From a virus: a stretch of 25,398 nucleotides of DNA. Where the stretch lies: positions 1-25,398 of IMG/VR virus record IMGVR_UViG_3300036884_000260; one strand, written 5' to 3'. Under the pieces are notes generated by a model. That model did not search any database. It had not been told where the DNA came from and was given only the letters and a program-made list of their open reading frames with translations. Each line of letters opens with the position of its first letter. The stretch's first letter is position 1. The translations under genes were made by a program, and so were the position numbers. Shown here one piece after another: positions 11,773-24,772 of this stretch.

Positions 11773-11790
11773 AAACCAGCTACTCGCTAA

Positions 11791-11798
11791 TACTTATA
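11791..11798 (+). promoter_or_regulatory. TACTTATA element upstream of the 215-aa structural gene
   Basis: TACTTATAGATGAG lies 25 nt before the ATG at 11824 and is flanked by a short inverted repeat (TACTC 11781-11785 and GAGTA 11802-11806). It shares TTATAGATGA with the element at 24008. The gap is 51 nt, whereas the previous three structural genes are nearly abutting. A new transcription start here is inferred. Confidence 0.4.
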
Positions 11799-11823
11799 GA
11801 TGAGTAACATTTTATAAAAACAT

Positions 11824-12471
11824 ATGGCATATATTGATTCGGAAACTATCACGGTTGATGCAATTCTCACCCAAAAGGGTCGTCAGCTTTTGGCGCAGAA
11901 CGGCAACCTGAACATTACGTCATTCGCCTTGGCCGATGACGAAATTGACTACACGCTGTATCAGCCGAACCACCCCAATGGTAGCGCCTTCTACGATATT
12001 GCCTTGCGTAATACCCCAGTTTTTGAGCCGTTGACTGACGAAACACAAGTGATGAAGTACAAACTCGTCACGCTCAACCAAGGTGTCACGTCTATTCCAG
12101 TCATCACGATTTCTCAAGACAAGATTCTCGTGACGAAAGATTATACGGGAGACATTATCATCAATCCCTCGACTAACCCCGCCTACAACTTGCAAGCGGG
12201 ATACACGGCTATCCTCGGAAATAAGAACGTCGGTATTCTCATAGTTCAGCAGACGAATGCAATAAACTCTGTGGCCAACACCGTGCCGACATTTGCCGGT
12301 GACATCAATATCGCAAGCGCCCAAGTCGTTGTAGGAAACAGTTTCCGTTTTGTTCCAAATAGTGGATTGAACAAGACAACGACAACCAACTTAACAATCA
12401 TCGGAAATGAATCGGGGGGCAGCACTTCGATTGAAGTCACCGTGACGGTTCCTCCACCAACATCTCAGTAA
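11824..12471 (+). CDS. Tail/virion structural protein
   Basis: This 215-aa protein opens with ITVDAILTQKGRQLLAQNG and then ITSFALADDEIDYTLYQPNH. I recognise this opening as a recurring virion-protein type in environmental T4-like phages, without an assigned function. Residues ~75-215 are beta-rich and Thr/Val/Asn-rich and end in a Pro-rich tail (TVPPPTSQ). The conserved N-terminal ~90 residues probably carry the shared function and the C-terminus looks variable. The upstream gap holds a TACTTATA element, and the next gene starts 4 nt downstream. No enzyme motif, signal peptide or membrane segment is visible. Confidence 0.75.
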   Translation: MAYIDSETITVDAILTQKGRQLLAQNGNLNITSFALADDEIDYTLYQPNHPNGSAFYDIALRNTPVFEPLTDETQVMKYKLVTLNQGVTSIPVITISQDKILVTKDYTGDIIINPSTNPAYNLQAGYTAILGNKNVGILIVQQTNAINSVANTVPTFAGDINIASAQVVVGNSFRFVPNSGLNKTTTTNLTIIGNESGGSTSIEVTVTVPPPTSQ

Positions 12472-12475
12472 ATAT

Positions 12476-13630
12476 ATGATATTCAATCAATTCGACCCAA
12501 ATAAGGACGTTGTAGCTGGGCGTGTGACCCGTATTGCAAGTGGGTTTTGGCCCGATGGTTCGCCAGACTGGGATCAAGGAAATTTCAACGATGACTTTTG
12601 GCGCATCACCGGCTCGTCGGGCACGCCATCATATGGAACGTCATTCTATGACATTCGATATACGATGTATTATCTGAATGTGTTTCCAGACCAATCGTCC
12701 TACGTCAACTACGACCCTTATTTCTCCATCGCATACGGAAACTTCTATGGAGATTTGGGAAGCGGGTCATTCCCGGTTGAATCGGCGAGTATTGAAACCT
12801 CTCCTACCAAGGCGATTTACACCCAGTACAAAAACATTCTCTTGTCCAATTCGGATGTGAATGCCACGTCCAATGGAATGTTTTCCATGACCAGTGCTAG
12901 TACCACAGTTACAGCCCAAGACATATGGGTAATCAATTTCTCAGCTTACAAGATGAAGGACAGAATTGACGAGGGTTTGCTGCAACTTAATTTCAGCGGT
13001 TCGGCTGGACTTGTCACTCTGATTGACGACTCCATTTATTCGACTCAGAACCAGTACGTCTATCAGCTTGTGACTGGAAGCTTGAATGCTCCATTCGGAA
13101 GTCCCACATATGAAGGTATTGGACTATTCTATCCACAGGTTGGAATCGTAGTCCTCAACGCCGCCCTCTTGGCTAACAAGCTTGGAATTACCAGCGGTTC
13201 GGGAGTAGGTGCAGGGACGAATGGTCCGTGTGATGATGGTTCATGGCCATATATCTCGGGTTCAATTCCGGGCAATATTAACTATACTTACAACCACAAG
13301 ACTCTGTTCGAGTCCATGAACATTTGTCAGGGCCAATTGATGAATGTCCGCAAGTCGGAATACGTTCCCGCTCGTCATTACTTCGTCCGTGTAATGAACC
13401 GTGACTTCAATTACAGTAACAACCCGACCTATGTTTACGATGGGACTGACCATGTGCATCCAAAAGGTCAAATATACAATGCGGACTTCATTACCGATCC
13501 AAGAACGTACGTTACGACTGTCGGACTGTACAACGATAGCAATGAACTTGTTGCTGTGGCAAAACTAAGCAGACCAGCGGTTAAGTCTTTTGATCAGGAA
13601 TTACTTATAAAAGTACGGTTGGATTTTTGA
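12476..13630 (+). CDS. Virion structural protein with a tail-type C-terminal domain
   Basis: The 384-aa product begins 4 nt after the previous stop and has no clear Shine-Dalgarno site, so it is probably translationally coupled. It is a beta-rich Ser/Gly/Tyr-rich protein with a large N-terminal region (SGFWPDGSPDW, FSAYKMKDRIDEGLLQL) and a C-terminal part (YVPARHYFVRVMNRDFNYSN ... TTVGLYNDSNELVAVAKL ... LLIKVRLDF). The last ~40 residues match the end of the FG-GAP protein at 21516-23960 (TTIGLYSGLELVALAKL ... FVVKMDF), so the two probably share an attachment module. No T4 homologue is recognised. A homing endonuclease gene follows directly. Confidence 0.75.
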   Translation: MIFNQFDPNKDVVAGRVTRIASGFWPDGSPDWDQGNFNDDFWRITGSSGTPSYGTSFYDIRYTMYYLNVFPDQSSYVNYDPYFSIAYGNFYGDLGSGSFPVESASIETSPTKAIYTQYKNILLSNSDVNATSNGMFSMTSASTTVTAQDIWVINFSAYKMKDRIDEGLLQLNFSGSAGLVTLIDDSIYSTQNQYVYQLVTGSLNAPFGSPTYEGIGLFYPQVGIVVLNAALLANKLGITSGSGVGAGTNGPCDDGSWPYISGSIPGNINYTYNHKTLFESMNICQGQLMNVRKSEYVPARHYFVRVMNRDFNYSNNPTYVYDGTDHVHPKGQIYNADFITDPRTYVTTVGLYNDSNELVAVAKLSRPAVKSFDQELLIKVRLDF

Positions 13631-13662: not shown

Positions 13663-13696
13663 ATGTCGCTCGATACTTATGGTATATGAGCGACAT
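13663..13696 (+). promoter_or_regulatory. Stem-loop over the homing endonuclease 1 start codon
   Basis: A perfect 9-bp inverted repeat, ATGTCGCTC (13663-13671) and GAGCGACAT (13688-13696), encloses an inner ATAC/GTAT stem with a 5-nt loop. The ATG at 13686 sits at the base of the 3' arm, so in a read-through mRNA the start would be buried. The TACTTATG element lies inside the hairpin. This resembles the known T4 I-TevI arrangement, in which a hairpin blocks translation from long transcripts. Structure is seen; function is inferred. Confidence 0.55.
13674..13681 (+). promoter_or_regulatory. TACTTATG element inside the endonuclease hairpin
   Basis: TACTTATG is a variant of the recurring TATTTATA element, placed 4 nt before the ATG at 13686. 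If it acts as a -10 box, initiation would fall at or just after the start codon and remove the 5' arm of the hairpin. It is the weakest match of the seven elements. Confidence 0.3.
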
Positions 13697-14549
13697 TATT
13701 ATTTGTAGATTAGATGGGAAGGAAATGCTTGTAAAGCATTTGGCAAGACACTTAAAACTGTATCATCAGAAAGATTACAGAGAGTATATCGGGGAGCACA
13801 TCGAAGATTTTGAAACTCACGGATGGAACTTGTGCTCAGTATGCCACAAACCAGTCAAAGGAAAAGCCTGCCCCGGCGAATGTTTAAGACAACATTATTC
13901 TTCCTCTCGTATAGGGATAGTTAAAGGTCCAATGTCCGATGAAACCAAGAAAAAACTTTCAGACAATCGAAAAGAGAAATATGCCAATGGATGGGAGCCA
14001 CGAGTAGGAAAACTACATACCGAAGAATCAAAACAGAAAATGTCGGAGTTTCAAATAGAACGACTTGCCGATCCCAAGAATCATCCATTTTTTGGTAAAC
14101 ATCACACAAACGAGACCAAAGGCAAACTGTCTAAATCTCATATAGGATTGCTAGTCGGGGAGAAAAATGGAATGTATGGAAAAACGCATACGCCTGAAGC
14201 AATTCGAAAAATATTCTCTCACCGCAAAATGAATGGATTGGAAAAAATAGTTGCCGATAAGCTGGATGAAGCGGGAATCCCATATCATTTTCAATACTTC
14301 ATTGCAGAAAATGGAATATGTAAATCCTACGACTTTAAGATAAAGGGGAAACCTCTAATCATCGAAGTGGACGGAGATTTTTGGCATGGAAATCCTTGCC
14401 AATCAAATCATTATGAGAAAGTGAATTCTGTTCGGGAAAATGATAAGATTAAGGATGAAATTGCGAAAAATCGAGGCATTTCTGTGATTCGATTGTGGGA
14501 ATCTGACATTAGAAAAGACCCATCCATTGTCCTCAAATATATGGCGTGA
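13686..14549 (+). CDS. Homing endonuclease: NUMOD3 plus EDxHD/Vsr-like nuclease
   Basis: This free-standing 287-aa endonuclease lies between two structural genes. Residues 1-35 resemble a Ros/MucR-type zinc finger (CRLDGKEMLVKHLARHLKLY), but the second Cys is Asp. A CxxC...C...C cluster follows (CSVCHKPVKGKACPGEC). Residues ~88-175 hold NUMOD3-type DNA-binding repeats (HTEESKQKMSE, HTNETKGKLSKSHIG, HTPEAIRKIFS). Residues ~178-280 look like the nuclease core: LEKIVADKLDEAGIPYHFQY, YDFKIKGKPLIIEVDGDFWH with acidic and His residues, then VIRLWESDI. Such enzymes cut a phage allele lacking the gene and spread by repair. The gene is AT-rich relative to the flanking genes. An upstream in-frame start at 13650 exists, but 13686 has the better position. 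Confidence 0.85.
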   Translation: MSDIIICRLDGKEMLVKHLARHLKLYHQKDYREYIGEHIEDFETHGWNLCSVCHKPVKGKACPGECLRQHYSSSRIGIVKGPMSDETKKKLSDNRKEKYANGWEPRVGKLHTEESKQKMSEFQIERLADPKNHPFFGKHHTNETKGKLSKSHIGLLVGEKNGMYGKTHTPEAIRKIFSHRKMNGLEKIVADKLDEAGIPYHFQYFIAENGICKSYDFKIKGKPLIIEVDGDFWHGNPCQSNHYEKVNSVRENDKIKDEIAKNRGISVIRLWESDIRKDPSIVLKYMA

Positions 14550-14568
14550 GTCTATTTATAGTTAGACT
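14549..14568 (+). promoter_or_regulatory. Hairpin between the endonuclease stop and gene A
   Basis: AGTCTA (14549-14554) and TAGACT (14563-14568) form a 6-bp stem with an 8-nt loop. It runs from the last base of the endonuclease stop to the base before the next ATG at 14569. Its loop carries most of the TATTTATA element. There is no Shine-Dalgarno site. Confidence 0.45.
14553..14560 (+). promoter_or_regulatory. TATTTATA element before gene A
   Basis: TATTTATAG lies 8 nt before the ATG at 14569, the same spacing as the element at 19315 before its ATG. It occupies the loop side of the AGTCTA/TAGACT hairpin. A late-promoter role is inferred from recurrence, not shown. Confidence 0.45.
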
Positions 14569-15966
14569 ATGATCAAGCACATAAATCACCAGAACGTTTC
14601 GACGACGCCATTCGTTGCGGCTAAGTCTCGTGATTTATACAACACCCAGAACCCCGATTCTCTCATTACTGAGGCTGCTGTCTATCCGGATGGAACTCAT
14701 ATTGCGCTTGATTACGTTAACTACAATTCGGGGAATCCCATACTAAACCGAGATTGCGATATTGCTCTTGAACAGCAAGACGCAGACCTTATTCAATACG
14801 AAGAAGGCATAACAGGGTCAGGAACATTCAACTCAGCTTCCGACCCTCGAAATTCGGACGGCACCTACAAGACGCTTGTTCATCGTCAAATTGAGAATGC
14901 ATTCTACAACACCTACCGAAATCCCACGGAAATCTTTGGTGTAGAGCATATTGATTTTCCGTTAAGTAAAACCCTCCGGAATCTCTCCGATCACTTTCGG
15001 ATGTTTACCGTCCCGAGGTCTATATTCGGGGATAAAATACAGCCTAAAAGCGTCCAATTCTTCGATACCTTGTTTGATGACAATGTGGCGATTTTTGATG
15101 ACGGTTATCAGAATCTCATTGCGGGCTACAACTTGTTTTCTAAGGTTCAAGAAGTGCGGACATTCCCTTCTGGGGCGGGCTATCAAAATGCTATTTTCCC
15201 GGGAAGCTCAAGTAACGATTGCCCTACCATAGACAGTTTATGGGTAACTGATCCGAAGGATCAAATTGTTTATCAAGGATTTACGGCGTCGTTTTCGGTA
15301 ACTGCTAGTGGAGCCTTGCCGTTGACCTATCAATGGATTTCTGGGAGCACTTATTTGGTAGATGGTTCTCGTATTACAGGAAGTAACACCATAAACGGAA
15401 CTACGTCTTCATTGTTTATCAACAATGTTCAATTTTCAGATGCCGGGACATATAAGGTACATGTTACTAATGCATATGGAAGAAGTGTGGATAGTAACAC
15501 GGCTTTACTCACTGTGTTAGATACTATAATAGTAGCTTCAATGCATGATTCAGCATCTTCCGATCTTTCTTTGAGATTTGGAAATTATGGAGACACTTCA
15601 ACAATAGAACCAATTGTTTCCACGTTCGCATCTTTTTTGAGTGGATACATTTTCGACACTGTTATTCCGACGTATGGGGATGAGACAGCATCCGTTGATA
15701 ATGGGTTCGAAAGCGGATACATTTTCGACACTATTATTCCGATTTATGGAGGAAACGAGACAGCATCCGTTGATAGTGGGTTCGACAGCGGATACATTTT
15801 CGATGTTATCATACCGATTTATGGAGGAAACGAGACAGCATCCGTTGATAGTGGGTTCGACAGCGGATATACAACGCTTGTTGTGACGCCCGCATTTCAG
15901 GTTGAACCCGTTGCCACATTTACTGTAGGTTTTCTAACAGGAAGTATATCGGGAAGCTATCCGTAA
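14569..15966 (+). CDS. Tail-associated protein A with Ig-like domain and tandem repeats
   Basis: The 465-aa protein has a modular layout. Residues ~1-215 match the 236-aa product at 18579-19289 (ALDYVNYNSGNPILNRDCDI, NPTEIFGVEHIDFPLSKT, RMFTVPRSIFGDKIQPKSV, NLFSKVQEVR). Residues ~227-317 form an Ig-like domain (PLTYQWISGSTYLVDGSRI ... FSDAGTYKVHVTNAYG). Residues ~357-431 are three near-identical 24-25-residue repeats, followed by a short Gly/Ser tail. The N-terminal part is richer in GC than the Ig and repeat part, so the latter looks appended. Ig-like domains on phage virions are known as surface adhesion modules. A virion-exposed, tail-associated role is inferred. The start follows a hairpin with no Shine-Dalgarno site. 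Confidence 0.75.
   Translation: MIKHINHQNVSTTPFVAAKSRDLYNTQNPDSLITEAAVYPDGTHIALDYVNYNSGNPILNRDCDIALEQQDADLIQYEEGITGSGTFNSASDPRNSDGTYKTLVHRQIENAFYNTYRNPTEIFGVEHIDFPLSKTLRNLSDHFRMFTVPRSIFGDKIQPKSVQFFDTLFDDNVAIFDDGYQNLIAGYNLFSKVQEVRTFPSGAGYQNAIFPGSSSNDCPTIDSLWVTDPKDQIVYQGFTASFSVTASGALPLTYQWISGSTYLVDGSRITGSNTINGTTSSLFINNVQFSDAGTYKVHVTNAYGRSVDSNTALLTVLDTIIVASMHDSASSDLSLRFGNYGDTSTIEPIVSTFASFLSGYIFDTVIPTYGDETASVDNGFESGYIFDTIIPIYGGNETASVDSGFDSGYIFDVIIPIYGGNETASVDSGFDSGYTTLVVTPAFQVEPVATFTVGFLTGSISGSYP
15640..15861 (+). repeat. Three tandem in-frame repeats, 72/75/75 bp
   Basis: Units at 15640-15711, 15712-15786 and 15787-15861 each encode SGYIFDxxIPxYG, then ETASVDxGF. The first lacks one codon (GDET rather than GGNET). 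Units 2 and 3 are nearly identical in DNA, which points to recent expansion. A partial fourth unit (SGY) follows. Confidence 0.95.
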
Positions 15967-24007: not shown

Positions 24008-24015
24008 TATTTATA
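24008..24015 (+). promoter_or_regulatory. TATTTATA element before homing endonuclease 2
   Basis: TATTTATAGATGAT ends 1 nt before the first ATG at 24017. Pairing of TCAT (24005-24008) with ATGA (24017-24020) would place the ATG in a weak hairpin. With the sigma70 promoter just upstream, the gene may have both an early and a late start. Confidence 0.4.
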
Positions 24016-24016
24016 G

Positions 24017-24772
24017 ATGATGATTACATTGTATCAAAACGAACAAATGCAATGGTGCAGGAAATGCTCATGTGGCAGGGAGATTATCTATGCCAATAAG
24101 CGTGCTGCTGACTCGTCGGCGTGTTATTTGAGGCACAGTGAAAAAAATACATGTCATTCGTGCAGACAAATAGGAGAAAACAACGGACGATTTGGAAAAC
24201 CCATATCTGAAAAGAACAGGATTGCTATCAGCGTCAGAAACAAAGGGAACACATATTCCGTTGGTTACAAACATTCGGAAGATGCCAAAAAGAGAATGTC
24301 GTTGGGGTTGATTGGAAATAAACATACGCTTGGGGTTAGACCATCGGAGGAAACTCGAAAAAAACTTCGGAATAAAGTGATTGCAGAATCTACCCGAGAA
24401 AAATTAAGAGAACACAGATTACACCAGATAGAAAAACTTGGGTATAAAGGACCGGCATACAATAGAATTGCGTGTCAATTTATTGATAGGATAAATAATG
24501 CGTTTGGATTAAATCTACAACATGCTCTAAATGGCGGGGAAGTTCGAGCAGCCGGATATTCGATGGACGGATATGATAAAGACAAAAACATTGTTTTTGA
24601 GTATGATGAAAAAACGCATCAAACTCCGTGTTATAGACAAAAAGATTTTCAAAGACAGTCACGAATAATAAGAAAGATAAATCCGTGTTTGTTTTTGCGT
24701 TACGATGAAACAAACGAGCGTCTATATGACGCCGAGACAAATTCAACCATACAATTTTATGCCCACTCCTAA
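24017..24772 (+). CDS. Homing endonuclease: zinc ribbon, NUMOD3, EDxHD-like core
   Basis: The 251-aa product starts with a zinc-ribbon-like cluster (CRKCSCGREI ... CHSCRQIGENN). NUMOD3-type DNA-binding repeats follow (FGKPISEKNRIAIS, YKHSEDAKKRMSLGL, VRPSEETRKKLRNK, ESTREKLREH). A C-terminal core at ~165-245 (AGYSMDGYDKDKNIVFEYDE, KTH, DFQRQSRIIRK, LFLRYDE) has the Asp, Glu and His pattern of EDxHD/PD-(D/E)XK homing nucleases. It sits between two virion genes, is AT-rich and has its own sigma70-type promoter. ATGs at 24017, 24020 and 24047 are all possible; the last still keeps the Cys cluster. It ends inside the start region of the next gene, so insertion was nearly seamless. Nuclease class is well supported; target site unknown. 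Confidence 0.8.
   Translation: MMITLYQNEQMQWCRKCSCGREIIYANKRAADSSACYLRHSEKNTCHSCRQIGENNGRFGKPISEKNRIAISVRNKGNTYSVGYKHSEDAKKRMSLGLIGNKHTLGVRPSEETRKKLRNKVIAESTREKLREHRLHQIEKLGYKGPAYNRIACQFIDRINNAFGLNLQHALNGGEVRAAGYSMDGYDKDKNIVFEYDEKTHQTPCYRQKDFQRQSRIIRKINPCLFLRYDETNERLYDAETNSTIQFYAHS

Follow-up and report, generated by a model that had tools for sequence, protein, structure and literature searches.

A homing endonuclease gene with its start in a conserved hairpin and a putative late promoter motif: a probable variant of phage T4 start control in T4-like phages

A homing endonuclease gene begins inside a hairpin that also holds a promoter-like motif in the window, by which we mean the whole 25,398-nt stretch of viral DNA analysed (IMG/VR record IMGVR_UViG_3300036884_000260). 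From the hairpin, its conservation, the enrichment of the motif and the gene layout we infer promoter activity within the hairpin, a transcription start at or near the ATG, translational repression of read-through RNA and, as the purpose, insulation of nuclease dosage. We hold it probable that the start is closed by the hairpin and served by an internal late-type promoter, which would limit translation of the nuclease to its own promoter. The arrangement appears to be a well-supported variant, here in a T4-like phage group, of the start control known from phage T4.

Results

The endonuclease gene and its neighbours

The features of the cassette are as follows (all on the + strand).

12476..13630, +, upstream tail-region structural gene, ending in ..ELLIKVRLDF and the stop, with homologues in all relatives
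13663..13671, +, 5' arm of the hairpin (anti-start), ATGTCGCTC, non-coding, co-varying with the 3' arm in L013, L014 and L017
13673..13685, +, inner stem-loop ATAC..GTAT, stem 13673-13676 / 13682-13685
13674..13681, +, TACTTATG, a variant of the promoter-like motif, within the inner stem and loop
13686..13688, +, start codon ATG at the inner edge of the 3' arm, with A bulged, U wobble-paired and G paired
13688..13696, +, 3' arm of the hairpin, GAGCGACAT, overlapping codons 1-4 (Met-Ser-Asp-Ile)
13686..14549, +, homing endonuclease ORF of 287 aa, with an N-terminal Cys/His finger-like region, NUMOD3 repeats and a C-terminal EVDGDFWHGNP..IRLWESDI nuclease domain (Vsr/EDxHD-like)
14549..14568, +, small hairpin AGTCTA/TAGACT immediately ahead of the next gene, holding a second promoter-like element, TATTTATA (14553-14560)
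14569..15966, +, downstream gene for an Ig-domain tail or decoration protein (profile matches)

The NUMOD3 repeats of the endonuclease correspond to PF07460 (E 1.5e-16), and its PHROG matches are homing endonucleases. The C-terminus gave a weak match to the Vsr-like PF18741 (E 2.9e-4, below the cut-off), and a PDB profile search with the protein returned no match. The pattern EVDGDFWHG..W.SDI, together with what we take to be characteristic of the family, suggests an EDxHD-type enzyme (cf. I-Bth0305I). The first methionine, ATG 13686, is invariant across 11 homologues. An upstream extension of the frame to GTG 13650 was rejected, as M1 in the family alignment is ATG 13686 and the codons upstream of it are not conserved.

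Both flanking genes are structural tail genes with the late-type motif. We propose that the upstream gene is the source of read-through RNA into the cassette; the downstream gene is presumably driven by the element at 14553. A copy of TACTTATA lies at 13602-13609, inside the end of the upstream gene, and is not seen there in the aligned relatives; a transcript from this copy would include the entire hairpin.

The start hairpin

The outer arms, 13663-13671 and 13688-13696, are perfect 9-bp complements, and the minimum-energy fold of 13663-13696 includes the nested ATAC/GTAT stem (-17.3 kcal/mol; -17 to -18 overall). In the predicted fold of read-through RNA, the probabilities of being unpaired at the ATG are 1.00 for the bulged A, 0.21 for the U (a G-U wobble) and 0.00 for the G, which sits in the outer stem. 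The strong hairpin that a preliminary description had placed over the start is thus confirmed in its arms, inner stem and ATG position, and its claim that the start would be hidden in read-through RNA agrees with this fold.

By itself the window hairpin is only moderately unusual and barely exceeds chance. For the 70-nt start region z is -3.4, and 1 of 300 shuffles is equally stable; by length the hairpin is 25th of the window's 76 inverted repeats; and a single copy of TACTTATG is present, against 0.83 expected. It is more than a chance structure because it is conserved in relatives and because TACTTATG belongs to an enriched motif. Rfam and tRNA scans gave no matches, nor did a nucleotide search against phage records.

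Conservation of the start pairing in relatives

Ten viral contigs encode the upstream gene, and a protein search added further endonuclease homologues, nearly all of them in a cassette behind the same gene ending in ..LDF and the stop. In L003, L004, L005 and L007 the next structural gene comes straight after the upstream one, and hairpin and endonuclease are both absent; the idea that the hairpin is the upstream gene's own terminator was ruled out on this ground. The cassette is present in the other contigs examined, with the exception of L009, where a remnant of the endonuclease C-terminus (its last codons) and the downstream TATTTATA stand before another gene (2355-2460), resembling a promoter scar.

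A start hairpin was found in 12/12 homologues examined at this site (z -3.4 to -7.3), compared with z <= -3 in 3/120 sampled other genes and in 5/77 motif-bearing genes without an endonuclease label (Fisher 2.6e-11), counts that include related contigs, and so are not fully independent, and that rest on mechanical gene calling. Of these five, four are structural genes and the remaining one encodes a GIY-YIG endonuclease. The homologues fall into two classes. In class A (the window and L012-L017) the 3' arm includes the ATG. Most 3' arms of class B (L018-L022) carry a Shine-Dalgarno-like AGGAG, GAGGA, AGGAA or TAGGG, with a T-rich spacer and the ATG behind it; no Shine-Dalgarno (SD) sequence was recognised in the 3' arm of L021.

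The preliminary description had proposed compensatory changes in relatives as a check, and these are present. Among six close class A sequences, 54/54 cells of the outer stem are paired and two pairs are changed on both sides, as against 24-56% paired in a slid-partner control. The non-coding 5' arm tracks a codon change from Ser to Asn in L013 and L017 and a synonymous change from AGC to AGT in L014. The ATG or SD is still paired in L016 and L018-L022, which have different sequences, and the start of L016 pairs with an unrelated sequence. This pattern argues that the start pairing has been preserved by selection. A second promoter motif stands behind the endonuclease stop in the window, L012-L016, L018, L019 and L021, though not in L017, and is missing in the relatives that lack the endonuclease.

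The main rival explanation is that the hairpin acts as a terminator with an embedded promoter: it would stop transcription from the upstream tail gene, the internal promoter would restart it, the promoter behind the ORF would do the same for the next gene, and the start pairing would be a by-product. Such an arrangement has a precedent in T4 mobE, where a terminator lies within the gene and a promoter downstream of it serves nrdB (PMC2988022). Stems followed by T5-T7, as in intrinsic terminators, are found in L018-L022 and in the HNH gene G006:63520, the window hairpin has the tail TATTATTT, a similar-looking element precedes gene 11824, and the downstream promoter motif fits as well. The T tract is nevertheless not what the homologues have in common: L016 lacks one (GTATTATA), the tails in class A follow from Ile codons, and it is the pairing of ATG or SD that is conserved across both classes. 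A terminator scan of the window also did not flag the hairpin at 13663. We consider termination unlikely as the explanation of the hairpin; where T tracts occur it is plausible, and it may coexist with start closure, above all in class B.

A probable late promoter motif

The suggestion that the element inside the hairpin is promoter-like is borne out, as TACTTATG is one form of TA[T/C/G][T/G]TATA, a motif strongly enriched 5' of genes in these phages and oriented with the gene strand. In nine related contigs, gene-upstream occurrences numbered 29 for TATTTATA (1.3 expected), 10 for TACTTATA (0.4 expected) and 10 for TATGTATA (0.3 expected). The T4-type TATAAATA, unlike TATTTATA, showed little or no enrichment. 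In the cultured Flavobacterium phage immuto, TATTTATA precedes 13/53 annotated genes of the head/tail region, including those for terminase, portal (gp20-like), sheath, tube, hub and tape measure, and for this reason we read the motif as probably a late promoter. A different motif dominates the 60-110 kb region of immuto, where (L136, NC_055915 60001-110000) TAGGTATCAATAATT is repeated upstream of many small genes and is perhaps an early promoter.

Searches of the relatives, whose contigs are incomplete, gave no matches to sigma70 region 2 or to a T7-type RNA polymerase (for the latter the control was also silent), and a literature search for TATTTATA as a described phage late promoter found no relevant paper. 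Hairpin promoters of the N4 type were ruled out since most motif sites have no hairpin.

Many motif sites in the window's group are separated from the ATG by just 3-8 nt, so that the mRNAs may be nearly leaderless. Such spacing is unusually close for a promoter and would also suit a second rival, in which an RNase cuts the AU-rich loop of read-through RNA and so frees the start, the motif being a cleavage or translation element. RNase E processing has been reported for T4 segB and segG and for Aeh1 mobE (PMC2988022). The motif-ATG distances vary, from 3 to about 60 nt, and in immuto the motif stands 11-30 nt ahead of late genes, is mostly unpaired and is followed by A-rich leaders, as a promoter would be; we find processing improbable. 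Both processing and a DNA-level operator are less likely than termination. The operator, a palindrome bound by the endonuclease or a repressor for autoregulation, has a parallel in the established autorepression of I-TevI through an operator overlapping its late promoter (PMC2988022), and is very improbable given that the arm sequences differ wholly among homologues with pairing kept and that the hairpin has no similarity above shuffles to the empty insertion site.

Modelled transcripts and proposed mechanism

The motif is at -12 to -14 in class A (-11 in L016), and in class B it lies in or beside the loop. Short RNAs were modelled as starting 5 nt behind the motif. For most class A ATGs, the probability of being unpaired rose from 0.0-0.2 in read-through RNA to about 0.4-0.9 at U and G in the short RNA, and a window RNA starting at 13686 has its ATG unpaired at 0.92/0.77/0.74. 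The SD of L019, L020 and L022 goes from 0.00 in read-through RNA to 0.67-0.95 in the short RNA; in L022 the ATG remains paired. The earlier expectation that a short transcript would free the start therefore stands in most models and fails in L014, where the ATG stays hidden (0.15-0.19). The 5-nt spacing would land within the ATG of L016, which makes the position of its transcript start uncertain.

These models are consistent with the following mechanism. The 5' hairpin of the cassette would pair the start (the ATG in the window, the SD in class B) with bases that overlap a late-type promoter or lie immediately 5' of it. Read-through RNA from the upstream tail genes would hold both arms and be closed at the start, and RNA begun at the hairpin-internal promoter would lack the 5' arm and be open. 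The short RNA of the window would begin at the ATG or a few bases off, and thus be nearly leaderless. The nuclease would in this way be translated only from RNA of its own promoter, independently of the tail operon around it, and the second promoter behind the ORF would keep the downstream gene expressed.

Start hairpins at other endonucleases and other genes

More distant homologues, at about 30% identity, that follow a tail-tube gene (phrog_4542) share the class B layout, their 3' arms carrying GAGGG, AAGGAG or AGGGGGA (L031, L040, L065, L066 and L149); in L044 the hairpin is present and the ATG is further off. Comparable start hairpins with the motif occur at the GIY-YIG gene G004:25001 and at the HNH genes G006:63520 and G012:514. 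There are counter-examples: start hairpins are weak or absent in the homologues L142 and L145-L148 (z -0.1 to -2.1), immuto and Mel-JY01 have none at their annotated HNH or GIY-YIG genes, and the second endonuclease in the window (24017) has no strong one. It is a tentative and rather doubtful extension of our reading that unrelated nuclease types (NUMOD3/Vsr-like, GIY-YIG, HNH) share an insulating late promoter in a start-closing hairpin, with the mRNA of the ATG-burying class leaderless from the freed ATG.

The second NUMOD3 endonuclease gene of the window (24008-24772) lies behind a tail gene ending in ..VKMDF and the stop. Its TATTTATA ends 1 nt before the first ATG, and because of this proximity either its true start or its transcript start is uncertain.

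A start hairpin is not exclusive to endonucleases, because a few structural genes share the layout (G005:44381, G006:73123, G008:18270 and G013:10348). In three of these (G005:44381, G006:73123 and G008:18270) the gene encodes a structural protein of ~880 aa, and the transcribed TATGTATA together with its flank pairs with the start region to form leader hairpins of high stability (-25 to -34 kcal/mol). A hairpin with TACTTATA in its loop is also found at 11786-11823 of the window, 25 nt before the structural gene at 11824. This element is conserved among relatives, and a GIY-YIG endonuclease ORF starts directly after its equivalent in G007, G010 and G011.

Discussion

If our reading is correct, T4-style muzzling of homing endonucleases is not an oddity of T4 and extends to distant T4-like phages. 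Mobile endonuclease cassettes would have conserved this control or acquired it repeatedly, in combination with other nucleases and another promoter motif. The likely promoter motif occurs in the cultured relative immuto, so the promoter part is testable at the bench.

In phage T4, I-TevI, I-TevII, I-TevIII and segB are controlled by a hairpin combined with a late or middle promoter, and the endonuclease genes under hairpin control sit on early or middle transcripts (PMC2988022, PMC3014915). Recomputed as a control, the T4 I-TevI hairpin gave -19.7 kcal/mol and an SD with an unpaired probability of 0. The window cassette resembles I-TevI in that a stable hairpin closes the endonuclease start on read-through RNA and the promoter's own transcripts would lack the 5' arm. 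The preliminary description had invoked I-TevI logic in a different gene family and phage. The differences hold: I-TevI is a GIY-YIG enzyme borne by an intron, whereas the window gene is free-standing between late tail genes, with NUMOD3 repeats and a Vsr/EDxHD-like C-terminus, and its motif is TA[T/C/G][T/G]TATA in place of the TATAAATA-type late promoters of the T4 cases. Unlike I-TevI, class A buries the ATG itself, and the RNA is probably almost leaderless. The I-TevI logic itself carries over in the layout of hairpin plus internal promoter and not in the switch from early to late, as the window's neighbours are structural tail genes of late type rather than an early or middle transcription unit. 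With read-through probably late too, the hairpin would probably insulate the dosage of the endonuclease from read-through of a strong late operon, rather than set its timing.

Two other systems are close in design. The endonuclease mobE of Aeromonas phage Aeh1 is likewise free-standing and served by a late promoter, and a hairpin covers its ribosome binding site; it differs in being an HNH nuclease inside nrdA, in its RNase E processing and in belonging to another phage group (PMC2988022). The T4 genes e, soc and 49 also have starts that are hidden on long transcripts and free on short ones, with the promoter within the 5' strand of the structure (PMC3014915), but these are ordinary phage genes, whereas the gene in the window encodes an endonuclease.
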